Shown here: piece after piece, positions 38,009-48,662 of the stretch
Numbering within the stretch: the first letter of the stretch is position 1
Layout of the letters: each line of letters opens with the position of its first letter
Source: an uncultured Clostridia bacterium
GTDB lineage: Bacteria > Bacillota > Clostridia > UBA1381
NCBI GenBank assembly: GCA_947631235.1
Contig: CANRKO010000001.1
Location: 496,001 to 560,000, forward strand
Direction: 5' to 3'
Length of the DNA: 64,000 bases
Made by a program: the position numbers and the translations under genes
The notes under the pieces: generated by a model
What the model was told of the DNA's origin: nothing
The model's input: only the letters and a program-made list of their open reading frames with translations
Databases searched by the model: none

Positions 38009-39463
38009 TTATTTCATCAAATATTCGTCCACCGCGGCGGCAGTCTCTCTGCCCTCGCGTATTGCCCAGACGACAAGGCTCTGTCCTCTGCGGCAGTCGC
38101 CCGCCGCGAACACTCCCCGAAGGCTCGTCTTGTGGTCGGTTTCCTTCGCGCTTATATTGCTCCTCGCGTCGGTTTCGAGCGTGAGTTGACGGAGTAAGTC
38201 CTGCTCGGGTCCCAAAAAGCCCATCGCGATAAGCACAAGTTCGCAGTCGCGCACCTGTTCCGTACCCTTTACAGGCACGGGCGCGCCCGTTGACCAGTCG
38301 ACCTGCACGGTATGCACCGCCTTGACGCGTCCTTTTTCGTCGCCCTCGATTTTCGTTACCGTGGTGGTGTACTCGCGCGGGTCGTGTCCGTAAAACTCTA
38401 TCGCCTCTTCCTGACCGTAATCCGTCTTTTTAACTCTGGGCCATTCGGGCCACGGGTTATTCGGAAGTCTGTCCTCCGACATTTCGGGCATGATTTCAAG
38501 CTGCGTGACGCTCTTGCAGCCGTGACGGATCGACGTTCCCACGCAGTCCGTACCCGTGTCGCCGCCGCCTATCACGATAACGTTCTTACCCTCCGCGCTT
38601 ATGTATTTTCTGTCCTCAAGCTTGCTGTCCAAAAGGCTCTTTGTGTTGGCTTTCAGAAAGTCAACGGCGTAATGCACTCCCTTTAAGTCCGCGCCATCCA
38701 CGGTAAGCGGTCTCGGGTTTGCCGCGCCGGTGCAAAGCACTACCGCGTCAAATTCGTTTACAAGCTTTACAGCCGGATAGTTCTTGCCTATTTCGGTGTT
38801 AAGGCGGAACGTTACGCCCTCCTTCTGCATGAGGTCTACGCGCCTTTGTACCACGGATTTGTCGAGTTTCATATTCGGTATGCCGTACATCAGAAGTCCG
38901 CCGGCTCTGTCCTCGCGCTCGAACACCGTTACGCGGTGTCCCATTTGGTTGAGCATATCGGCAGCCGCAAGACCCGAAGGTCCGCTGCCGACTACCGCGA
39001 CGCGCTTTTCCGTCGATTTCTCGGGTATGCGCGGCACGACCTTACCCTCGGCAAACATTGTGTCTATTATGTGGCACTCGATGTTCCTCACCGTTACGGC
39101 GGGGTCGTGCATACCGAGCGTACACGAGCCTTCGCAAAGCGCGGGGCATACGCGTCCCGTAAATTCGGGGAAACTGCTCGTCAGCGACAAGCGTCTGTAC
39201 GCTTCCTCGATATTGCCTTGGTACACGAGGTCGTTCCACTCGGGTATGAGGTTATTCAGCGGGCAGCCTATCGACGTGCGTCCGACCTGCACGCCCGCGT
39301 GACAGAACGGTATTCCGCAGTCCATGCAGCGCGCGCCCTGCAAACGCAGCTTTTCTATGTCAAAATGCGTGTGAAACTCGTCCCAGTCCTTTATTCTCTC
39401 CTTCGGAGGTCTGTCCGCCGGGAGCTGTCTTTCATATTCCAAAAATCCTGTCGGTTTTCCCAT
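38009..39463 (-). CDS. gltD: Glutamate synthase small subunit
   Basis: 484 residues. The N-terminal two [4Fe-4S] clusters use ARCMDCGIPFCHAG and CPALCEGSCTLG. The FAD-binding motif is VAVVGSGPSGLAAADML (about residue 153) and the NAD(P)H site is VIVIGGGDTGTDC. It passes electrons from NADPH to the large subunit. It follows gltB by 18 bp, as in most bacteria. Confidence 0.96.
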   Translation of the reverse strand: MGKPTGFLEYERQLPADRPPKERIKDWDEFHTHFDIEKLRLQGARCMDCGIPFCHAGVQVGRTSIGCPLNNLIPEWNDLVYQGNIEEAYRRLSLTSSFPEFTGRVCPALCEGSCTLGMHDPAVTVRNIECHIIDTMFAEGKVVPRIPEKSTEKRVAVVGSGPSGLAAADMLNQMGHRVTVFEREDRAGGLLMYGIPNMKLDKSVVQRRVDLMQKEGVTFRLNTEIGKNYPAVKLVNEFDAVVLCTGAANPRPLTVDGADLKGVHYAVDFLKANTKSLLDSKLEDRKYISAEGKNVIVIGGGDTGTDCVGTSIRHGCKSVTQLEIMPEMSEDRLPNNPWPEWPRVKKTDYGQEEAIEFYGHDPREYTTTVTKIEGDEKGRVKAVHTVQVDWSTGAPVPVKGTEQVRDCELVLIAMGFLGPEQDLLRQLTLETDARSNISAKETDHKTSLRGVFAAGDCRRGQSLVVWAIREGRETAAAVDEYLMK

Positions 39464-39481: not shown

Positions 39482-42400
39482 TTACGCAACTTCTATCTTC
39501 TTGCCGGTCACGTTCTCGAATGCCATAAGCATTGCCGTGTCGCGGTCTGTGCCTTTTGAGAGCTCGTCGTTAAGCACGGTTATGACCTTCTTGTAATCTC
39601 TCGGTATTACCTTTACAAAACGCTTTAATTCGCTCTCCCAGTTGTCGAGAATGAATTTTGCGGCGTCGCTTTCGGTGTACTCGTAATGCTTTTCTATCAT
39701 CGTACGGAGCGTTTCCTCGTCCTTTTTGCCGAGTTTTTCAAGCAGCACAAGTTCCTTATTGCAGTTTTTGTCAAGACTCTTGTTTTTGTCATACACGTAA
39801 GCCGTACCGCCCGACATACCGGCTGCGAAATTCCTGCCCGTCTCGCCTATCACCGCGACGCATCCGCCGGTCATGTACTCGCAGCCGTGGTCGCCTATGC
39901 CTTCTACCACCGCCGTCATGCCGCTGTTGCGCACGCAGAAACGTTCGCCGGCTATGCCACGTATGTACGCCTCGCCCTTTATCGCGCCGTAGAACGCGAC
40001 GTTGCCGATGATTACGTTCTCGCTCGGATTAAACCGCGAGTCGGCGGGAGGTACGACTATGATTTTACCGCCCGACAAGCCCTTTCCTATGTAGTCGTTG
40101 CTGTCGCCCTCAAGCTTAAGCGTCACGCCCGACGCGAGGAACGCGCCGAAACTCTGACCCGCGCTGCCTACAAAGTGCAGCTTTATGCTGTCGTCGGGAA
40201 GTCCTTCCTCGCCGTGAACACGCGTTATTTCGGACGACAGTATCGTTCCCGTAACGCGGTCGATATTTGTTATTTCAAGCTTAGCCTCGATCTTTTTACC
40301 GTCGTACACCGCACCTCGGCATATACGCAGAAGGGTGTTCGCGTCAAGCGTTTTGCCGAGTTCGTGATCCTGGTCGAGATTGTGGTAACGCTCGAAGTCG
40401 TTGGAGCAGATTTTGGGCTGGTACAGGAGCGACGACAAATCGACCTCCTTAGCCTTCCAGTTGTCCTCTATCTTCTTCTGGTTCAGTCGCTCGACGTGAC
40501 CTATCATCTCGTTCACGGTCTTTACGCCGATTTTCGCCATCCACTCTCTCAAATCCTGCGCGATAAAGCGCATGAAGTTCTCGACGTACTCCGGCTTACC
40601 CGCGAAACGCTTACGAAGTTTCGGGTTCTGCGTCGCAACGCCGACAGGGCATGTGTCGAGGTTACATACTCTCATCATTACGCAGCCTATTGCAATCAGC
40701 GGGCCTGTCGCGAAGCCGAATTCCTCCGCGCCGAGCAGCGCGGCAACGGCTACGTCGCGTCCCGTAAGCAGCTTACCGTCCGTTTCTATAACGACCCTGT
40801 TGCGGAGATTGTTCATAAGGAGCGCCTGGTGCGTTTCGGCAACGCCGAGTTCCCACGGAAGTCCGGCGTGTCTCACGCTCGTTCTCGGAGCCGCGCCCGT
40901 GCCGCCGTCGTAGCCCGACACGAGTATTACGTCGGCGCGTCCTTTCGCAACGCCGACGGCAATCGTGCCTACGCCGGCTTCGGAGACAAGCTTTACAGTT
41001 ACTCTCGCGTCACGGTTCGCGTTTTTAAGGTCGTGGATAAGCTGCGCCAAATCCTCTATCGAATATATGTCGTGGTGCGGCGGGGGTGAAATAAGTCCCA
41101 CGCCAGGCGTGGAGTGACGCGTTTTAGCTATCCACGGATAGACCTTCGCGCCCGGAAGGTGTCCGCCCTCGCCCGGCTTTGCGCCCTGCGCCATTTTTAT
41201 CTGTATTTCTTTCGCGTTGTTCAGGTAGTTTATATGTACTCCGAATCTTCCCGACGCGACCTGTTTTATCGCGGAGCAGCGCAGATCGCCGTTTTCGTCG
41301 GGGGTAAAGCGTTCTCTGTCCTCGCCGCCCTCGCCGCTGTTCGACTTGCCGCCGAGACGGTTCATCGCTATGGCGAGACACTCGTGCGCTTCCTTACTGA
41401 TTGAGCCGTAGGACATCGCGCCCGTCTTAAAGCGTTTTACTATGCTCTCTACGCTCTCGACCTCGTCGATCGCGATAGGCTTGTCGATCGTGCTTATATC
41501 GAGCATACCGCGTATCGTACATTGGTGCTGTCTGTGCGAGTCCATTTCGGCTGCGTATTCCTTGTACAGCTTGTAGTCGCCGGTGCGGCACGCTCTCTGC
41601 AGCTTGTATATGCTTTCGGGGTTGAACATATGGTACTCGCCCTTTGCGCGCCACTTATGCTCGCCGCCCGTTTTAAGCGCCTTTTTGCCCGTAACCTTGT
41701 CAAACGCTTCCTTGTGGCGCAGCAGCGCTTCTTTCTGTATATGACCGAGACCTATGCCGCCTATACGCGTCGTGGTGCCGGTAAAGTACTTTTCAACCAC
41801 GCTCTCCGTAATGCCGAGCGCTTCAAATATCTGCGCGCCCTGGTACGACTGGATCGTGGATATGCCCATTTTCGACATTACCTTTACTATGCCGTGAGTG
41901 CAAGCGTCGTTAAACCGCTTTACGCCCTCGTCGTACGATACGCTTATAAGTTTCTGCTCGCAAAGCTCCTCTATCGCTTCATACGCCATGTACGGGTTCA
42001 CGCCGTTTACGCCGTAGCCTATGAGACACGCGAAATGATGCACCTCGCGCGGCTCGCCCGTTTCGAGTACGATCGACGTTTTAATGCGCGTACCCCTGCG
42101 GATAAGGTGGTGGTGAAGTCCCGACGCGGCAAGCAGCGCGGGTATCGGGGCTTTGTCCTTGCTCACGCCCTTGTCGGACAGGATTATTATGTTGTAGCCG
42201 TTCTCTATCGCGATGTCGGCAGCTTCGAATATTGTTTCGAGCGCGGCTTCCATATCGTCCTCGCGGCGCGTGCTGAACAGCATCGGTATCGTTATCGACT
42301 TAAAGCCTTCAAGGTCTATCGCGCGGAGCTTTTGAAGTTCCTCGTTCGTGAGTATAGGGCTTAACGCTCTCACCTTGCGGCAGTTAAGCTCCGACGATGT

Positions 42401-44179
42401 GAGAAGATTCTGCTCGCAGCCGAAAAGCGTGTAGGTGGACGTTACGATCTGCTCTCTTATCGCGTCGATAGGCGGGTTTGTGACCTGCGCGAAAAGCTGC
42501 TTGAAATAGTTGTACAAAAGCTGCGGCTTTTCGGACAGTACCGCGAGCGGTATATCCGTACCCATCGCGCCTATCGGGTCGTCCGATTTTTCGACCATTT
42601 GACGCACGGTCGCGTTGATTTCCTCCCAAGTGTAGCCGAACGCCTTCTGACGCGTCAAAAGCGGCAGTTCGTCCTCGCCGTTCTCACGGTTCACGAACAT
42701 ATTTTCGAGCGCGATGAAGTTGCGGAGCATTAAGTCCTCGTTCATACTGCCCTTGGTGGTCGCCTTCAGATTGTTTACAAGGTCGTGCCACGTGTCGCCC
42801 TTTTTCGATGTTTCGGCGGGCAGCTTGTCAAGCTCGGTAAGCGTCTGTTTTACCCACTTGCCGTAGGGCTTGTGCTGCGCTTCGTACTTTTTGATTTCCT
42901 CGTCGGAAATAATTTTACCTTCCTTTGTGTCTATAAGGAGCATCTTCGCGGGGCGGAGTCTCTCCTTCTTTATGATTTTCGCGCTGTCAATGTCTGTTAC
43001 GCCGACCTCGGACGAGAGTATTATCATATCGTCGTCCGTAAGGTAGTAACGCGCGGGGCGAAGTCCGTTTCTGTCGAGCGTCGCGCCGACGTAGCGTCCG
43101 TCGGTAAACGCGACCGCAGCCGGCCCGTCCCACGGCTCGGTTATGCAGGAATGGTACTCGTAGAACGACCTCATGTCCTTATCCATTTCGGTGTTGTTCT
43201 CCCACGGTTCGGGTATCGTCATCATCACCGCGCGCGGAAGTGAAAATCCCGAGAGGTGGAGGAACTGAAGGTAGTTGTCGAGCATCGCGCTGTCCGAACC
43301 GTCCTCGTTTATTACGGGCAGGATTTTATCCATTTCGCCCTCAAACTCCGGCGTCGCGAACATTCTTTCACGCGCCTTTACCCAGTTGACGTTGCCGCGT
43401 ATGGTGTTTATCTCGCCGTTGTGGATTATGTACCTGTTCGGGTGCGCCCTTTCCCACGACGGGAACGTGTTTGTCGAGAAACGCGAATGTACGAGCGCGA
43501 TCGCCGTTTCCATGTCCGCGTCCTTTAAGTCGAGGTAAAACTCGTTTACCTGGTCGGGCGTGAGCATGCCCTTGTACACGATCGTGCGCGACGAGAGCGA
43601 CGCGAAATAGAAGTAACGGTCCGCGCCCGTTTTTCTTATGCGCTTTTCCGCGATTTTGCCGATGATGTAGAGCTTTCTTTCAAAGTCCTCCTCGGTCATT
43701 TTATTCGTTTCCTTGCCGATGAATATCTGCAATATATGCGGCTTTGCCTCACGCGCGGTCTTGCCGATGCACTCGCCGTAAACCGGCACTTCGCGCACGC
43801 CGAGCAGCTTTTGACCCTCGCCCTCGATTATTTCGGCAAGCGTTTTGACGCTTTCGCTCCTTGTGTCCGCGTCGGGCGACAAAAACAGCATACCCACGCC
43901 GTAATCGTCCTTTTCGGGAAGGTCGATGTCCTCGTTGCGGCACACCTTTTTAAAGAATGTGTGCGGAAGCTGTATAAGTATGCCCGCGCCGTCGCCGGTG
44001 TCGGGCTCGCTGCCGACGCCGCCCCTGTGCGCGAGGTTCTTCAAAATCTGTATCGCCTGGTTTATTATCTTGTGAGAGGTCTTACCCTTGATATTTGCGA
44101 TAAAGCCTATGCCGCACGCGTCATGCTCAAACTGCGGGTCGTACATTCCCTGTTTTTCGGGCAGTCCGTTATACTCCAT
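39482..44179 (-). CDS. gltB: Glutamate synthase large subunit
   Basis: 1565 residues. The glutaminase (Ntn) domain starts at Cys22 in FEHDACGIGF, so the first 21 residues are a propeptide. The central and FMN-binding synthase domains follow (SNSGEGGED, AKPGEGGHLPG, VSGYDGGTGAAPRTS), then the Fe-S motif CVMMRVCNLDTC and the C-terminal beta-helix with SGGTAYVYD-type repeats. Together with GltD it makes two glutamates from glutamine and 2-oxoglutarate. The leader carries a promoter, a hairpin and a terminator of the same design as glnA. Confidence 0.97.
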   Translation of the reverse strand: MEYNGLPEKQGMYDPQFEHDACGIGFIANIKGKTSHKIINQAIQILKNLAHRGGVGSEPDTGDGAGILIQLPHTFFKKVCRNEDIDLPEKDDYGVGMLFLSPDADTRSESVKTLAEIIEGEGQKLLGVREVPVYGECIGKTAREAKPHILQIFIGKETNKMTEEDFERKLYIIGKIAEKRIRKTGADRYFYFASLSSRTIVYKGMLTPDQVNEFYLDLKDADMETAIALVHSRFSTNTFPSWERAHPNRYIIHNGEINTIRGNVNWVKARERMFATPEFEGEMDKILPVINEDGSDSAMLDNYLQFLHLSGFSLPRAVMMTIPEPWENNTEMDKDMRSFYEYHSCITEPWDGPAAVAFTDGRYVGATLDRNGLRPARYYLTDDDMIILSSEVGVTDIDSAKIIKKERLRPAKMLLIDTKEGKIISDEEIKKYEAQHKPYGKWVKQTLTELDKLPAETSKKGDTWHDLVNNLKATTKGSMNEDLMLRNFIALENMFVNRENGEDELPLLTRQKAFGYTWEEINATVRQMVEKSDDPIGAMGTDIPLAVLSEKPQLLYNYFKQLFAQVTNPPIDAIREQIVTSTYTLFGCEQNLLTSSELNCRKVRALSPILTNEELQKLRAIDLEGFKSITIPMLFSTRREDDMEAALETIFEAADIAIENGYNIIILSDKGVSKDKAPIPALLAASGLHHHLIRRGTRIKTSIVLETGEPREVHHFACLIGYGVNGVNPYMAYEAIEELCEQKLISVSYDEGVKRFNDACTHGIVKVMSKMGISTIQSYQGAQIFEALGITESVVEKYFTGTTTRIGGIGLGHIQKEALLRHKEAFDKVTGKKALKTGGEHKWRAKGEYHMFNPESIYKLQRACRTGDYKLYKEYAAEMDSHRQHQCTIRGMLDISTIDKPIAIDEVESVESIVKRFKTGAMSYGSISKEAHECLAIAMNRLGGKSNSGEGGEDRERFTPDENGDLRCSAIKQVASGRFGVHINYLNNAKEIQIKMAQGAKPGEGGHLPGAKVYPWIAKTRHSTPGVGLISPPPHHDIYSIEDLAQLIHDLKNANRDARVTVKLVSEAGVGTIAVGVAKGRADVILVSGYDGGTGAAPRTSVRHAGLPWELGVAETHQALLMNNLRNRVVIETDGKLLTGRDVAVAALLGAEEFGFATGPLIAIGCVMMRVCNLDTCPVGVATQNPKLRKRFAGKPEYVENFMRFIAQDLREWMAKIGVKTVNEMIGHVERLNQKKIEDNWKAKEVDLSSLLYQPKICSNDFERYHNLDQDHELGKTLDANTLLRICRGAVYDGKKIEAKLEITNIDRVTGTILSSEITRVHGEEGLPDDSIKLHFVGSAGQSFGAFLASGVTLKLEGDSNDYIGKGLSGGKIIVVPPADSRFNPSENVIIGNVAFYGAIKGEAYIRGIAGERFCVRNSGMTAVVEGIGDHGCEYMTGGCVAVIGETGRNFAAGMSGGTAYVYDKNKSLDKNCNKELVLLEKLGKKDEETLRTMIEKHYEYTESDAAKFILDNWESELKRFVKVIPRDYKKVITVLNDELSKGTDRDTAMLMAFENVTGKKIEVA

Positions 44180-44195
44180 TTACCTCAATCCTTTC

Positions 44196-44255
44196 AAAAA
44201 ATAAGGCGCTCCAACAAACACGTATATATGTGCTTATTGAAACGCCATTGTTTCA
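44196..44255 (-). promoter_or_regulatory. gltB leader: ANTAR-type hairpin overlapping a terminator
   Basis: Minus-strand RNA. Hairpin P1 (44238-44255) is TGAAAC-AATGGC-GTTTCA with a 6-base loop having A1 and G4. A second, longer hairpin (44205-44246) has 17 paired positions including G-U pairs and is followed by TTATTTTTT (44196-44204). The 3' arm of P1 lies in the 5' arm of the terminator, so only one can form. The gltB ATG is 17 bp further on. No second ANTAR hairpin was found. Confidence 0.72.
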
Positions 44256-44263
44256 TCATATCA

Positions 44264-44292
44264 ATTATACCACCGTAATACGATTATGTCTA
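44264..44292 (-). promoter_or_regulatory. gltBD promoter
   Basis: Minus-strand TAGACA (44287-44292), 17-bp spacer, TATAAT (44264-44269). The predicted start of RNA is near 44257, directly before the P1 hairpin. Confidence 0.75.
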
Positions 44293-44302
44293 CTGAGATA
44301 TT

Positions 44303-45514
44303 TTACAAAATTGCCTTGATTTTTTCCATAGCTTTTATGGTATTTTCCTTTGTCGAGAACGCCGTCAGTCTCACAAATCCCTCGCCGCTCGGTCCGAAAC
44401 CGCTGCCCGGAGTCGTTACAACGCCGGCTTCGTCGAGGATTTTGTCGAAGAATTCCCACGACTTTAAGCCGTCAGGCGTTTTTGCCCATATGTAAGGCGC
44501 GTTCTCGCCGCCGTATACGGTAAGACCCGCTTCGGTGAGCGCCGCGCGGATAATCTTCGCGTTTTCGAGGTAGTAAGCGATCGCCGCCTTTGTCTCGCGC
44601 CGGCCGTCCTCGCTGTACACAGCCTCAGCTGCGCGCTGGATCACGTAAGGCACGCCGTTAAACTTTGTGCACTGACGGCGGTTCCAAAGCGAGTTGAGCT
44701 CCGTGCCGTCAATTTTAAGCGTGTGCGGCACAACGGTATACGCGCAGCGCGTACCGGTAAAGCCCGCAGTCTTGGAAAAACTCCTAAACTCGATCGCTAC
44801 TTCCTTCGCGCCCTCGATCTCGTATATGCTGTGGGGAACGTCGGGGTTTGTGATAAACGCCTCGTACGCGCTGTCGTAAAGAATTACCGCGCCGTTCTCC
44901 TTCGCGTACTCGACCCACGGCTTTAACTGCTCTCTCGTCGCCGCCACGCCCGTGGGGTTGTTCGGGAAACAAAGGTAAATTATGTCAACCTTTTCCTTTG
45001 GGAGCTCCGGCATAAAGCCGTTTTCCTCGGTGCAGGGCATGTAGTAAAGGTTCGTCCAATGCTCACCCACGTAGTCGCCCGCGCGTCCCGCCATCGCGTT
45101 TGTGTCAACGTACACGGGGTATACGGGGTCGCACACCGCGACCTTGTTGTCTACCGAAAATATGTCGCCGATGTTGCCGCAGTCCGATTTCGCGCCGTCG
45201 GAAACGAATATTTCGCTGATGTCTATGTCGATGCCGCGTGATTTGTAGTCGCACTCGGCTATCTTCGAGCGCAGGAAGTCGTAGCCCTGCTCGGGGCCGT
45301 AGCCGTGGAAACCTTCGGCTGTACCCATTTCGTCAGCGGCAGCCTTCATAGCCTTTATGACCGCGGGCGCGAGCGGCTTTGTAACGTCGCCTATGCTCAT
45401 TTTGATAAGCTCTCTGTCGGGGTGCGCGGCGGCGAATTCCTCCGCCTTGCGCGCTACCGTTGAAAAAAGATACGCTCCCGGGAGCTTTAAGTAATTGTCG
45501 TTTATCTTTGCCAT
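44303..45514 (-). CDS. dapL: LL-diaminopimelate aminotransferase
   Basis: 403 residues, PLP-dependent class I/II aminotransferase. It converts tetrahydrodipicolinate directly to LL-diaminopimelate for lysine and peptidoglycan. The start [20 protein letters not shown] is characteristic; CFPNNPTGV and [13 protein letters not shown] (PLP Lys) follow. ATG 45514 with AAGGAG 8 bases upstream is preferred over the longer frame. dapF, the next enzyme, is encoded just upstream of it on the same strand, but a repeat element lies between them. Confidence 0.95.
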
Positions 45515-45579
45515 TGTTATGTCTCCTTTTTTATATTTCATATTATGTTTATATAATTTTAATATCGTGGTATGTTGTC

Positions 45580-45806
45580 GTAGGGGCGACCCTCGCGGTC
45601 GCCCGTTAGCCTCCCTTGTTAAAGGGAGGGGGACCGCCGAAGGCGGTGGAGGGATTCATTGCGAAAATACCAGAAAAGGAATCCCCCAGTCGCGCTACGC
45701 GCGCCAGCCCCCTTCACTACGGCGTTTGTTGCTTCGCAACACGCCTACAACACGCTATGCGTGTTGTTCACTTTGACAAGGGGGCCTTTCGTGGGTTCTC
45801 CCCTAC
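45580..45806. repeat. Mosaic palindromic repeat element between dapF and dapL
   Basis: Begins with GTAGGGGCGACC...GGTCGCCCG (45580-45605), the same unit as at 54742. It continues with hairpins CCTCCCTT/AAGGGAGG, ACCGCC/GGCGGT, and AACACGC/GCGTGTT, and ends in CCCCTAC (45800-45806), the mirror of its start. Non-coding and MITE-like. It fills most of the 302-bp gap. Confidence 0.75.
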
Positions 45807-45816
45807 GACGGCAATA

Positions 45817-46659
45817 TTACACCTCAATTTCCCCGTCGAACACAAACGCGGCGGGACCGGTCATATACACGGCGTTTTCCTGTTCGTCGTACTTTATATG
45901 CAGCGTGCCGCCCAGAAGAACGAGGTCTGCCTCATTATCGGTAAGACCGTTTAAGTACGCCGCGACGAGCGTTGCGCACGCACCCGTGCCGCAGGCGAGC
46001 GTCTCGCCCGCGCCGCGCTCCCACACGCGCATTTTTATTGTGCGCCTGTCAACTATCTGTGCAAACTCGGTGTTGATGCGTTTCGGGAACAGCTTGTGGT
46101 TTTCAAAATGCGGTCCGATTTTCTCTATTTCAAGGCTGTCCGTATCGTCTATAAAAGTCACGGCGTGAGGGTTGCCCATTGACACGCCCGTCACCTTGTA
46201 CGTCTTACCGAGAACCTCCACGTCCTCGCTTATAAAGCGTTCCTTGTCGGAGTCGATCGGTATGTTCTTCGGCACAAGCTCGGGACTTCCCATATTCACC
46301 GTCACGCTCTCCACCCTGCCGTCCTTTACGTTCAGGTCGAGGATTTTTATTCCCGCGAGCGTTTCAAGCGTCACGCGCGTCTTATCGGTAAGCCCTCTGT
46401 CGTACACGTACTTACCCACGCAGCGCGTCGCGTTGCCGCACATTTCAGCCTGCGAGCCGTCACTGTTATACATGTCCATACGGAAATCCGCCTTGTCGGA
46501 CGGGCAAATCAAAACAAGACCGTCAGAGCCTATTCCGAAATGGCGGTCGCTTACCTTTTTCGCGGTCGCGTTTATGTCCTCCACTTTTTCCTCAAAGCAG
46601 TTGACGTATATGTAGTCGTTGCCCGCGCCGTGCATCTTTGTGAATTTGAATTTATTCAT
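45817..46659 (-). CDS. dapF: Diaminopimelate epimerase
   Basis: 280 residues. Interconverts LL- and meso-diaminopimelate. The start FKFTKMHGAGNDYIYVN is diagnostic. The two catalytic Cys are in SQAEMCGNATRCVG and TLACGTGACATL. Adjacent to dapL, it completes the aminotransferase route to meso-DAP. It lies 21 bp after the ANTAR gene and may be read from the glnA promoter. Confidence 0.97.
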   Translation of the reverse strand: MNKFKFTKMHGAGNDYIYVNCFEEKVEDINATAKKVSDRHFGIGSDGLVLICPSDKADFRMDMYNSDGSQAEMCGNATRCVGKYVYDRGLTDKTRVTLETLAGIKILDLNVKDGRVESVTVNMGSPELVPKNIPIDSDKERFISEDVEVLGKTYKVTGVSMGNPHAVTFIDDTDSLEIEKIGPHFENHKLFPKRINTEFAQIVDRRTIKMRVWERGAGETLACGTGACATLVAAYLNGLTDNEADLVLLGGTLHIKYDEQENAVYMTGPAAFVFDGEIEV

Positions 46660-46680
46660 ATAACCACCCCTGTGAATTTT

Positions 46681-47205
46681 TTATATGCCCAATATTTGTC
46701 TCGCCGTATCTATAAATTTCGCGCCGGTGTCCATACTTCGCTTTTGTATAAAGCGGTGTGCCGCCTCCTCCGTCATGGCATGGTTTTCCATCAGATACGC
46801 CTTCGCGCTGTCTATTATCTGCTTTTCCTCGTCGGTTCGCTGTCTGCGGTGCTTTGTCCGCTCTATCATTCCGACGAAAGTTTCTATCGCGTTTAAAAGT
46901 ATCTGTCGGTTTATCGGCAGCGTCACGACAAATATGTCCTGATTGTATATGTCTGAGCTGTGCTCGGCTTTTACTATGCTTATCAGCTTGTGTCTGCCCT
47001 CTATATCCTCATACACCTCGTCAGCCACGCCGTCGGGCAGCTTGTAGCCCATGATTATAAGCGTTTCGTCCATGCCTGACAATGTACGTATCAGCTCTGC
47101 TCTCGACCGGCACACGGCGCATACGTCGTAGCCGCTCGCGTCGAGCATTCTTCTTATTTTTTCCGCCGTTTCGACGCGCGAAAAGGCGAGCGCTATACGC
47201 CTCAC
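46681..47205 (-). CDS. ANTAR-domain RNA-binding antiterminator with a pseudo-receiver domain
   Basis: 174 residues. A receiver-like fold covers about 3-115, but the position of the phospho-acceptor Asp reads LIIMGYKLPDG, with Gly53 in its place, so classical phosphorylation is unlikely. The C-terminal ANTAR helices (about 120-174) hold DEEKQIIDSAKAYLMENHAM and EEAAHRFIQKRSMD. ANTAR proteins bind hairpins with A1/G4 hexaloops and prevent termination. The gene is 32 bp after glnA; such proteins near glnA in clostridia are called NitR or GlnR-like. The start is GTG, with GGAGGTGG upstream. Target leaders at glnA and gltB are listed separately. Confidence 0.87.
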   Translation of the reverse strand: MRRIALAFSRVETAEKIRRMLDASGYDVCAVCRSRAELIRTLSGMDETLIIMGYKLPDGVADEVYEDIEGRHKLISIVKAEHSSDIYNQDIFVVTLPINRQILLNAIETFVGMIERTKHRRQRTDEEKQIIDSAKAYLMENHAMTEEAAHRFIQKRSMDTGAKFIDTARQILGI

Positions 47206-47237
47206 CGTATACCACCTCCATTACAATATTATTTTAA

Positions 47238-48554
47238 TCAATATTGTATGAGGTAATTTTCCACTTCCCAACTGTTTATCGTGCGGCGGTACGCGTCGTA
47301 CTCCTTAGCCTTGGCGTTGAGGTAGCTCGTCACAAATCTCGCGCCCAAAAGCTCGGTCATAAACGCTGACTGTTTCGCAATTCTTATCGCCTCGTTAAGG
47401 CTTATCGGCAGCTTTCTTATGCCGAGAGCCTCGCGTTCCCTGTCGGACAGCGTGTAGATGTTCACGTCTATTCCCGACTGCAGCTTTTCGCTGTTCTTTA
47501 TGCCCTCAATACCCGCCTTTAAGCACGCGGCAATTGCAAGGTACGGGTTTGCCGTGGAGTCGGGCGAGCGCAGTTCAACGTACGGCGCGCCTGTTTTCGC
47601 GGCTCTCGGTACGCGCACGAGCAGACTTCTGTTGTTTTCCGACCACGAAATGTAGCACGGCGCCTGAAAACCCGGTATGAAACGCTTGTAGGAATTTACG
47701 GTCGGGTTTGTAAGACACGCCATGTCGGGCGTGTATTTTAAAAGTCCGGCTATAAACTGCTTTGCCGTTTCGGACAGCTTTTCGTTTTCGGCGAACACGT
47801 TTTCCCCGTCCTTCATCAGAGCCATTTTAAGGTGCATACCGCTGCCCGCGACGCCCTCTATGGGTTTCGGCATAAACGTCGCGTGAAGTCCGTTGCGTTT
47901 CGCAATCGTCTTTACGACGGTGCGGAAGGTGACGAGACGGTCGGCTGTTACGAGCGCGTCGTCGTGACGGAACGCTATCTCGTGCTGTCCGGGCGCTTTC
48001 TCGTGGTGCGACGTTTCTATTTTGTAACCCATCTCTTCAAGAGTAAGGCATATCTCACGGCGGCAGTTCTCGCCGTTGTCAAGCGGCGCAAGGTCGAGGT
48101 AGCCGGCGTTGTCGTGCGGTTCAAGCGTCGGCACGCCGCGCTCGTCGGTGTTGAACAGGAAAAACTCGCACTCGGGTCCTATTTCGAGCGTATACCCCAT
48201 ATCCGCGGCTTCCTTTATAACCTTTTGCAGAATGTAGCGGGGGTCGCTTTCAAGGCGCGTGCCGTCCGGCTTGTACACGTCGCATATGAAACGCGCAACC
48301 TTGCCCTGATGCGGTCTCCATGGGAAAATCGTAAACGTGTCAAGGCACGGGCGCAGATAAAGGTCGCTCTCCTCGACCGTGACAAAGCCGTCGATAAGAG
48401 AGCCGTCAAACATACAGCGTCCGTCGAGCGCGTCCTCGAGCGCGGACGTGGTAATGGCGAGATTGCGCATATTGCCGAGTATGTCGGTAAACTGGAGACG
48501 GACAAATCGCACGTCCTCTTCGTCTATCAGCCTCAAAATATCCTGTTTATTCAT
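47238..48554 (-). CDS. glnA: Glutamine synthetase, type I
   Basis: 438 residues, the size of the GSI-alpha form without the adenylylation insert. Makes glutamine from glutamate, ammonia and ATP. Motifs are FDGSLIDGFVTVEESDLYLRP (split here only by position, about residues 49-69), the ATP-binding KPIEGVAGSGMHLKMAL and ENNRSLLVRVPRA. Its C-terminus ends in the family pattern SWEVENYLIQY. It has its own promoter and a leader terminator, and the ANTAR gene follows it. Confidence 0.97.
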   Translation of the reverse strand: MNKQDILRLIDEEDVRFVRLQFTDILGNMRNLAITTSALEDALDGRCMFDGSLIDGFVTVEESDLYLRPCLDTFTIFPWRPHQGKVARFICDVYKPDGTRLESDPRYILQKVIKEAADMGYTLEIGPECEFFLFNTDERGVPTLEPHDNAGYLDLAPLDNGENCRREICLTLEEMGYKIETSHHEKAPGQHEIAFRHDDALVTADRLVTFRTVVKTIAKRNGLHATFMPKPIEGVAGSGMHLKMALMKDGENVFAENEKLSETAKQFIAGLLKYTPDMACLTNPTVNSYKRFIPGFQAPCYISWSENNRSLLVRVPRAAKTGAPYVELRSPDSTANPYLAIAACLKAGIEGIKNSEKLQSGIDVNIYTLSDREREALGIRKLPISLNEAIRIAKQSAFMTELLGARFVTSYLNAKAKEYDAYRRTINSWEVENYLIQY

Positions 48555-48584
48555 GACAGCACGTTCCTTTCTTTCCCGTTCTTC

Positions 48585-48626
48585 AAAAAAAGCGCTTCTT
48601 CACCACCGAAGAAACACCTTTGTCTC
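48585..48626 (-). promoter_or_regulatory. glnA leader: ANTAR-type hairpin overlapping a terminator
   Basis: Minus-strand RNA. P1 (48611-48626) is GAGAC-AAAGGT-GTTTC with A1 and G4 in a 6-base loop. The terminator (48585-48615) is GTTTCTTC/GAAGAAGC with a GGTGGT loop, then GC and seven T. The GTTTC arm is shared, so the two structures exclude each other. The start codon is 31 bp past the T-run. The layout matches the gltB leader. Confidence 0.75.
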
Positions 48627-48633
48627 GCATTTA

Positions 48634-48662
48634 ATTTTAGCATAGGGGGATTTATTTGTCAA
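48634..48662 (-). promoter_or_regulatory. glnA promoter
   Basis: Minus-strand perfect TTGACA (48657-48662), 17-bp spacer, TAAAAT (48634-48639). RNA would start at about 48627, one base before P1. Confidence 0.82.

Follow-up and report, generated by a model that had tools for sequence, protein, structure and literature searches.

The region considered here lies in a window of 64,000 nucleotides (nt) from an uncultured Clostridia bacterium of the UBA1381 lineage (assembly GCA_947631235.1, contig CANRKO010000001.1, positions 496,001 to 560,000 of the forward strand), the whole of which was analysed and to which coordinates refer unless stated otherwise. On the minus strand the genes follow one another in the order glnA, a gene for a protein with an ANTAR domain, dapF, dapL, gltB and gltD, and the elements in question are the two short leaders, of about 75 nt each, that precede glnA and gltB, each with its own predicted promoter. 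The product of glnA (47238..48554, minus strand, ATG at 48554) is a type I glutamine synthetase (GS) matching TIGR00653 above the cut-off. The ANTAR gene (46681..47205, minus strand) lies 32 nt downstream of it and is, therefore, probably in the glnA operon. The large and small subunits of glutamate synthase (GOGAT) are encoded by gltB (39482..44179, minus strand, ATG at 44179) and by gltD (38009..39463, minus strand, TIGR01317 above the cut-off).

The glnA promoter, recognised by sequence match (TTGACA-17-TAAAAT with TG before the −10 box, 48634..48662, minus strand), places the RNA start at approximately 48628-48626, as deduced from the −10 box, at a predicted distance of at most about 2 nt from the hairpin GAGAC-AAAGGT-GTTTC (48611..48626, minus strand), the loop of which is a hexaloop with A in position 1 and G in position 4 (A1/G4). 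An intrinsic terminator follows (48585..48621, minus strand), with a stem of 15 base pairs (bp; 48621-48588) and a U7 tract (48591-48585), and its 5' arm includes the hairpin loop, from A1 onwards, and the hairpin 3' arm. The gltB leader is built in the same order, with a promoter again found by sequence match (TAGACA-17-TATAAT, 44264..44292, minus strand), an RNA start predicted within a few nt of the A1/G4 hexaloop hairpin TGAAAC-AATGGC-GTTTCA (44239..44256, minus strand), and a terminator (44196..44246, minus strand) with a 17-bp stem (44246-44205) and a U-rich tract. In this case the terminator 5' arm takes in the loop from G4 only, together with the GTTTC arm, and A1 and A2 remain outside it. 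A first-pass annotation made from the sequence had described a promoter, a hairpin and a terminator before both ATG codons, and all were located as described, with the glnA hairpin at the same position and the gltB hairpin displaced by 1 nt from the 44238-44255 originally given. Folding also bore out that the GTTTC arm lies within the terminator 5' arm in both leaders, and the distance from the predicted promoters agrees with a single hairpin placed at the extreme 5' end.

Competing folds and specificity of the hairpin

In its general form the hairpin has 3-10 pairs, a loop that usually reads A1-A-N-G4-G-Y, and a 3' arm with which a strong terminator begins. The terminator usually takes in part of the loop as well, and the hairpin and terminator folds are mutually exclusive. 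The calculated folding energies were −17.2 kcal/mol for the terminator against −3.6 kcal/mol for the hairpin in glnA (terminator z −4.2), −25.9 against −2.5 kcal/mol in gltB (terminator z −6.3) and −15.4 against −3.7 kcal/mol in the leader of glnN, a further gene of the same genome that is discussed below.

When the whole window was scanned on both strands for A1/G4 hexaloop hairpins of at least 4 pairs inside a terminator arm, exactly two sites were returned, those of the glnA and gltB leaders, and ten dinucleotide shuffles in 2-kb blocks returned 0, 0, 0, 0, 0, 0, 0, 1, 0 and 0 sites; because the rule was framed after both sites had been seen, the scan supports the observation but is no blind test. 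With the model R1 the gltB, glnN and glnA leaders of this genome scored 27.0, 26.7 and 21.0 bits, respectively, and a third, weak match was found in the window at 8456-8433 of the minus strand (16.2 bits, E 0.25). The three non-leader matches examined in the genome were rejected as lying inside long open frames (C2:31718, C9:28053 and C5:148605). The pattern RRRCAANGGYGTTT, when tried alone as an identifier, was found to be unspecific, with 4 matches in this genome against 5 for the reversed control, and reliance was therefore placed on the overlap with a terminator, the position before genes, covariation and co-occurrence. The A1/G4 hexaloop of the two window leaders is invariant in the alignments A3, A4 and A5, but A1, G4 and G5 are set by the search rule. 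No Rfam family reached its gathering score in the window.

The ANTAR protein

The protein encoded after glnA (174 amino acids) comprises a pseudo-receiver, a long helix and an ANTAR domain, the last of which, already recognised by the first-pass annotation, was matched by Pfam PF03861 with 51.9 bits against a cut-off of 27.3 (E 6.5e-14). It is the only ANTAR match in this genome, which is 86% complete, and NCBIfam has no named family for it. The predicted fold (predicted local distance difference test score, pLDDT, 83.6) best matches EutV bound to RNA (6ww6, E 5e-10, template modelling score 0.59), followed by Rv1626 and then by AmiR. Of the loop contacts of EutV, K149, E160 and M172 are conserved in every one of the 44 aligned relatives, and Y164, which in EutV stacks on G4, is replaced by His in all 44, as it is in AmiR, which is also alike in having a pseudo-receiver.

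The position of the phospho-acceptor Asp holds Gly (41 of the 44 aligned sequences), Ser (2) or Glu (1), and Leu or Met precedes the invariant Pro97 in the receiver. Since none of the 44 has the phospho-acceptor Asp, control by a kinase is unlikely, and the input signal is probably not phosphorylation; the AmiR pseudo-receiver is reported to be regulated by a partner protein (PMC8934654).

Conservation and covariation

Within the genus, both the ANTAR gene and the glnA hairpin were found in 16 of 16 genomes, the present one included. The wider family of gut Clostridia contributed 70 genomes (handles in G denote genomes, those in L loci), 59 of which match the ANTAR protein, 51 strongly and 8 only remotely. 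In the 51 strong loci glnA lies upstream of the ANTAR gene in 49, with L135 and L145 cut off by contig ends; with glnA off the contig in 2 loci and the leader cut short in 1, 48 leaders were readable. By a rule that asks for a closing C-G pair, A1, G4, G5 and no fewer than 3 pairs, the hairpin is present in 41 of these 48 glnA leaders, scanned over 200 nt, and in 28 of 38 readable gltB leaders, scanned over 360 nt; a 29th gltB match, in L123, lies inside dapL and was removed from counts and alignments. A terminator overlapping the hairpin was detected by a strict rule in 33 of 41 glnA, 20 of 28 gltB and 34 of 39 glnN leaders.

Among 25 genomes of the order that lie outside the family, none matches the ANTAR protein at 1e-20. 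A sample of the class gave matches at 1e-12 in 46 of 245 genomes, 8 of which belong to the same family, and 20 of the 38 others were examined, with leaders sorted by eye. The ANTAR gene is preceded by glnA in 20 of 20, and a hairpin of the same type was present in 13 of the 20 glnA leaders and absent from seven (L301, L304, L309, L310, L312, L314 and L319). The remote ANTAR proteins (25-31% identity) are encoded near another kind of glnA (47-51%), and no hexaloop hairpin with an overlapping terminator was seen by eye in nine such leaders, one of them almost without upstream sequence. A separate observation, also by eye, concerns the glnN leaders of genus g15 (L239, L241 and L260), where the A1/G4 hexaloop AGGC-AAUGAG-GCCU overlaps a terminator in genomes with a remote ANTAR gene near glnA and glnN, possibly a second, diverged ANTAR circuit.

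Since the terminator does not include the 5' arm, the pairing of this arm tests the hairpin by itself. Covariation in relatives had been named beforehand as a test, and it was clear in gltB and less so in glnA. In 25 distinct gltB rows, 92.0% of the cells are paired against 79.6% in shuffled alignments and 28-59% in slid versions; changes on both sides are seen in 5 of 6 pairs and amount to 27 cells, where shuffles give 5.8 and none of 500 reached the observed value. The gltB stem variants include GAAAC/GUUUC, GGGGC/GUCCC and AAAGC/GCUUU, with U-A or C-G as the outer pair. For glnA (45 rows, four inner pairs) the paired fraction was 90.6% against 80.4% in shuffles (0/500), and in the long and little varied glnN stems 124 of 125 cells are paired, a value equalled in 7 of 5000 shuffles. 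All of these shuffle tests are inflated by the relatedness of the sequences.

A probable unlinked target, glnN

The gene glnN encodes a GS of type III (Pfam GSIII_N) and is unlinked to the glnA-ANTAR locus; in the present genome its leader hairpin and terminator lie at G000:C1:412287-412310. Of 70 family matches 68 were read, 2 without the N-terminus being left out, and the start was placed in 65 after L255, L249 and L251 had been dropped because it was not re-found. Counted per leader, the hairpin was present in 38 of 48 cases from ANTAR genomes, in 0 of 8 from genomes with only a remote ANTAR protein and in 1 of 9 from genomes without ANTAR; counted per genome, in 38 of 44 against 1 of 16 without ANTAR or with the remote type only (Fisher test 1.4e-8, the genomes not being independent). 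The exception, G017, has the hairpin before glnN without an ANTAR gene and is 69% complete. In the genera g9, g6 and g11, one genome each (G035, G025 and G052) lacks both the ANTAR gene and the glnN hairpin, and at least one ANTAR-bearing sister has the hairpin.

Among the 11 family genomes without ANTAR, no type I glnA was found in 10, with glnA matches that were weak, inside frames of 530-730 amino acids, or missing, and 1 has the other kind, at 51%. For this reason the glnA-ANTAR pair seems to have been lost as a unit, and the distant glnN site appears to have gone with it. Read from the genomes, the co-occurrence at glnN is the strongest tie in this analysis between the hairpin and the ANTAR protein.

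In the glnN leader of the present genome (L063:2760-2880, G000:C1) an outer 12-bp helix, formed by GCAGGUUUUUGA and UCAAAAGCCUGC, surrounds both the hairpin and the terminator, and it would form only in readthrough RNA because its 3' strand comes after the U tract; most leaders of glnN within the genus have outer helices of 9-16 bp and of differing sequence, some of which may be due to chance in AT-rich sequence.

A hexaloop was also found within 140 nt before purF in 9 of 16 genomes of the genus, mostly without a terminator by eye, and not within that distance in the present genome. Model R1, which was built without purF, assigns 28.6 bits to the purF leaders in four congeners and so ranks them next to the best gltB sites. 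Before purF or purF-like genes of congeners (L205-L208, L210, L212-L214, L220 and L357) the hexaloop is often ACAAAGC-AAAGGC-GTTTTGT and, by eye, mostly close to the ribosome site without a terminator, an arrangement through which the ANTAR protein may control translation or RNA stability. The predicted regulon includes glnN and, in some congeners, purF.

Weighing the interpretation

The arrangement recalls NitR of Clostridium saccharobutylicum, an ANTAR antiterminator reported to induce GS and GOGAT genes on nitrogen limitation (PMC6316151, PMC4676874), and it is highly probable from the comparative evidence that the window carries a NitR-like ANTAR antitermination circuit with one hexaloop hairpin per target leader. 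The circuit over glnA and gltB that the first-pass annotation had proposed is, accordingly, supported by covariation and by the co-occurrence at glnN; in itself it is no novelty, since ANTAR control of GS and GOGAT genes is in print.

Several observations weigh against this interpretation. In folds of the isolated hairpins, A1 pairs with U6 of the loop in glnA and glnN, which leaves a four-base loop there, gltB being the sole one of the three with an open hexaloop. One of the R1 matches rejected above, that at C2:31718, reaches 22.4 bits inside an open frame and outscores the glnA site, so that score alone cannot define the regulon. In the ANTAR protein, the EutV contacts R168 and R175 are replaced by Q and G in 44 of 44 sequences and N173 by D in 43 of 44, and R142 and K147 are variable among the 44. 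The hairpin rule fails in 7 of 48 glnA leaders, 4 of which keep the loop and pair only 2 bp or less well, the remaining ones being 1 site beyond the 200 nt scanned, 1 with G at loop position 1 and 1 with none; it fails in 10 of 38 gltB leaders, among them L030, with a site beyond the 360 nt scanned, and L024, which is cut short, and in 10 of 48 glnN leaders from ANTAR genomes, G065 included. The strict rule finds no terminator in 8 of 41 glnA, 8 of 28 gltB and 5 of 39 glnN leaders. As for covariation, double-change pairs and pair types in glnA, 2 of 5 measures, do not exceed the shuffles (166/500 and 459/500), and, the rows having been preselected for at least 3 pairs, this choice in part fixes pairs 1-3. 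Most of the genomes are incomplete metagenome-assembled genomes. Finally, EutV (Ramesh 2012, PMC3369931) and NasR (PMC7496416) are reported to bind single hairpins weakly, NasR at about 12 uM, and to need two for full function.

The same material may be read as the incidental result of a terminator whose A-rich 5' base is conserved, with some other form of attenuation and no protein-bound antiterminator. For glnA this has some force, as the segment AAAGGTGTTTC pairs wholly with the terminator 3' arm and could be conserved without a protein, and the hexaloop forms the 5' base of the terminator (AAAGG with CYUUU), so that its conservation could stem from the terminator alone; several genomes without ANTAR also keep other terminator-like leaders before glnN, as seen by eye. 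However, the 5' arm, although outside the terminator, shows pairing and covariation with the 3' arm, A1 and A2 of the present gltB leader are outside it as well, the purF leaders of congeners carry the hexaloop hairpin with no terminator by eye, and the hairpin tracks the ANTAR gene at the unlinked glnN. Taken together, these findings make a mere by-product very unlikely.

Little credence is likewise given to an ANTAR protein that binds the 5'-terminal hairpin and acts on RNA stability, initiation or translation instead of termination. The purF hexaloops of congeners, which seem to lack terminators, would suit such a role, as would the glnA leaders of one other family (L300, L302 and L303), in which no terminator was seen by eye, and the report that few predicted ANTAR RNAs of actinobacteria precede a terminator (PMC8164766). 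In the window and in the 33 glnA leaders mentioned above, on the other hand, an overlapping terminator is present in the layout of the second hairpin (P2) of EutV and NasR targets. It may be added that L300, L302 and L303 have the hexaloop GGC-AAUGGG-GYC shortly after the promoter and that L300 and L303 have a second A1/G4 hairpin immediately upstream of the ribosome site, which may point to an ANTAR switch acting on translation.

A single hexaloop near the predicted RNA start

Because of its overlap with the terminator, the hairpin corresponds by analogy to P2, the antitermination hairpin of EutV and NasR, and the missing one to P1, the recruitment hairpin; the label P1, which the first-pass annotation had given to it, is not appropriate. 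An antitermination circuit with a single hairpin per leader is at odds with what is reported for EutV, for which both hexaloops are obligatory in vivo although a single loop can be bound (Walshe 2022, PMC8934654). The glnA promoter was recognised in 39 of 41 leaders, and the distance from the −10 box to A1 is 9-17 nt in 35 of them, which leaves no room for a second hairpin, and 54-55 nt in 4. No upstream A1/G4 hairpin of at least 3 bp was found in the 41 glnA leaders, nor a second upstream hexaloop in the 13 class leaders with the hairpin, with a downstream A1/G4 hairpin in L300, L303, L306 and L308. In glnN the distance from the −10 box to A1 is 28-115 nt.

That these are ordinary dual-hexaloop targets, like those of AmiR, NasR and EutV, with a second, poorly recognised hairpin upstream is extremely unlikely: an upstream A1/G4 hairpin of at least 3 bp does occur in 6 of 28 gltB and 2 of 39 glnN leaders, neither of the latter at the known spacing, but in only one of these eight, gltB of L128 (4 nt), is it closer than 21 nt, the linkers of the Enterococcus faecalis eut leaders are 5-12 nt, and the glnA leaders lack the hairpin and, in 35 of the 39 with a recognised promoter, the room for it. 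A layout of two hairpins 5-12 nt apart was not found in the glnA, gltB or glnN leaders.

The glnA hairpin ends at about +17 and the U tract starts at about +37, counting from the predicted start. If approximately 14 nt are held inside the polymerase, only about 10 nt would remain to be synthesised once the hairpin has emerged, and the glnA, gltB and glnN leaders would all sit under a constraint of transcription time. Single-loop sites have been considered possible where such a constraint is absent (Walshe 2022, PMC8934654). With the glnA hexaloop as the first RNA made, and some 10 nt of synthesis between its emergence and the termination decision, binding would have to be very fast, or the protein be tethered near the polymerase or promoter, or a promoter-proximal pause intervene. 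It is tentatively proposed, at slightly less than even weight, that these leaders form a widespread class of single-hexaloop ANTAR antiterminators in Clostridia, working without a recruitment hairpin and with a mode of loading other than the stepwise P1-to-P2 transfer proposed for EutV.

Comparison with known ANTAR systems

The closest likeness is that with the NitR system of C. saccharobutylicum and C. acetobutylicum, represented here by L307 (very probably the former species), where glnA is followed by an ANTAR gene and by a glutamate synthase gene and the glnA leader has a hexaloop hairpin (GAGC-AAAGGC-GTTC) and a terminator of the same kind as in the window. The ANTAR protein differs, being approximately 33% identical to that of the window; the glutamate synthase matches over the N-terminal part at 47-51%, and by the rule no such hairpin is present in its leader in L306 and L307. 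Control by an antisense RNA has also been reported in the NitR system. The eut leaders of E. faecalis and their EutV protein are alike in the A1/G4 hexaloop, in the overlap of the 3' arm with the terminator and in the receiver-like domain, and they differ in needing two hexaloops, in the phosphorylated Asp54, which is Gly in the window protein, and in their target genes. NasR of Klebsiella oxytoca and AmiR of Pseudomonas aeruginosa share ANTAR antitermination, but they act on dual hairpins and sense, respectively, nitrate through a NIT domain and the signal conveyed by AmiC (PMC3369936).

Dual-hairpin ANTAR targets before glutamate and glutamine synthase genes, for example in Desulfotomaculum, were predicted by Ramesh 2012 (PMC3369931, summed up in PMC3369936). 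They are alike in placing ANTAR RNAs before GOGAT and GS genes and differ in resting on a two-hairpin model, which would probably miss leaders with one hairpin. ANTAR control of GS and GOGAT genes is, thus, already known, and what is new is the single-hairpin layout. A literature search, with most subscription papers outside its reach, did not find a description of conserved single-hexaloop ANTAR antiterminators or of ANTAR control of GS type III.

As to the neighbouring genes, dapF and dapL (46659-44303), genes of lysine and peptidoglycan synthesis, lie between the ANTAR gene and gltB. The start of dapF is 21 nt downstream of the ANTAR gene, so that dapF may be carried on the glnA transcript; in that case it would be coupled to the nitrogen state. 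GC-rich dispersed repeats are found between dapF and dapL (45570-45815), and a similar-looking repeat apparently lies inside the gltB terminator, between its arms, in L021, L026, L119 and L030, as seen by eye.

Proposed mechanism and implications

In the mechanism that would fit these features, the terminator (−15 to −26 kcal/mol in the present genome) outcompetes the hairpin (about −2.5 to −4 kcal/mol) when no protein is bound, so that most transcripts would stop before the ATG. Under nitrogen shortage the ANTAR protein would bind the hexaloop as it emerges from the polymerase and stabilise the hairpin, and transcription would continue into glnA, gltB-gltD and the unlinked glnN. Readthrough of glnA would also transcribe the ANTAR gene and generate positive feedback. 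The signal would enter by way of the pseudo-receiver, through protein contact or a ligand rather than phosphorylation. Among conceivable partners, P-II is encoded in the present genome.

The conserved single-hexaloop leaders run against the two-hairpin rule at a point that the structural work on EutV leaves open, namely the role of single hexaloops (PMC8934654), and, as glnA, gltB and glnN differ in their distance from the promoter, they offer a direct way of testing what the recruitment hairpin does. They also suggest that searches based on a two-hairpin motif miss ANTAR targets in Clostridia. For the nitrogen metabolism of these bacteria, the findings would widen the reach of a NitR-like circuit, which would then cover GS type III and perhaps, in some species, purine synthesis as well.

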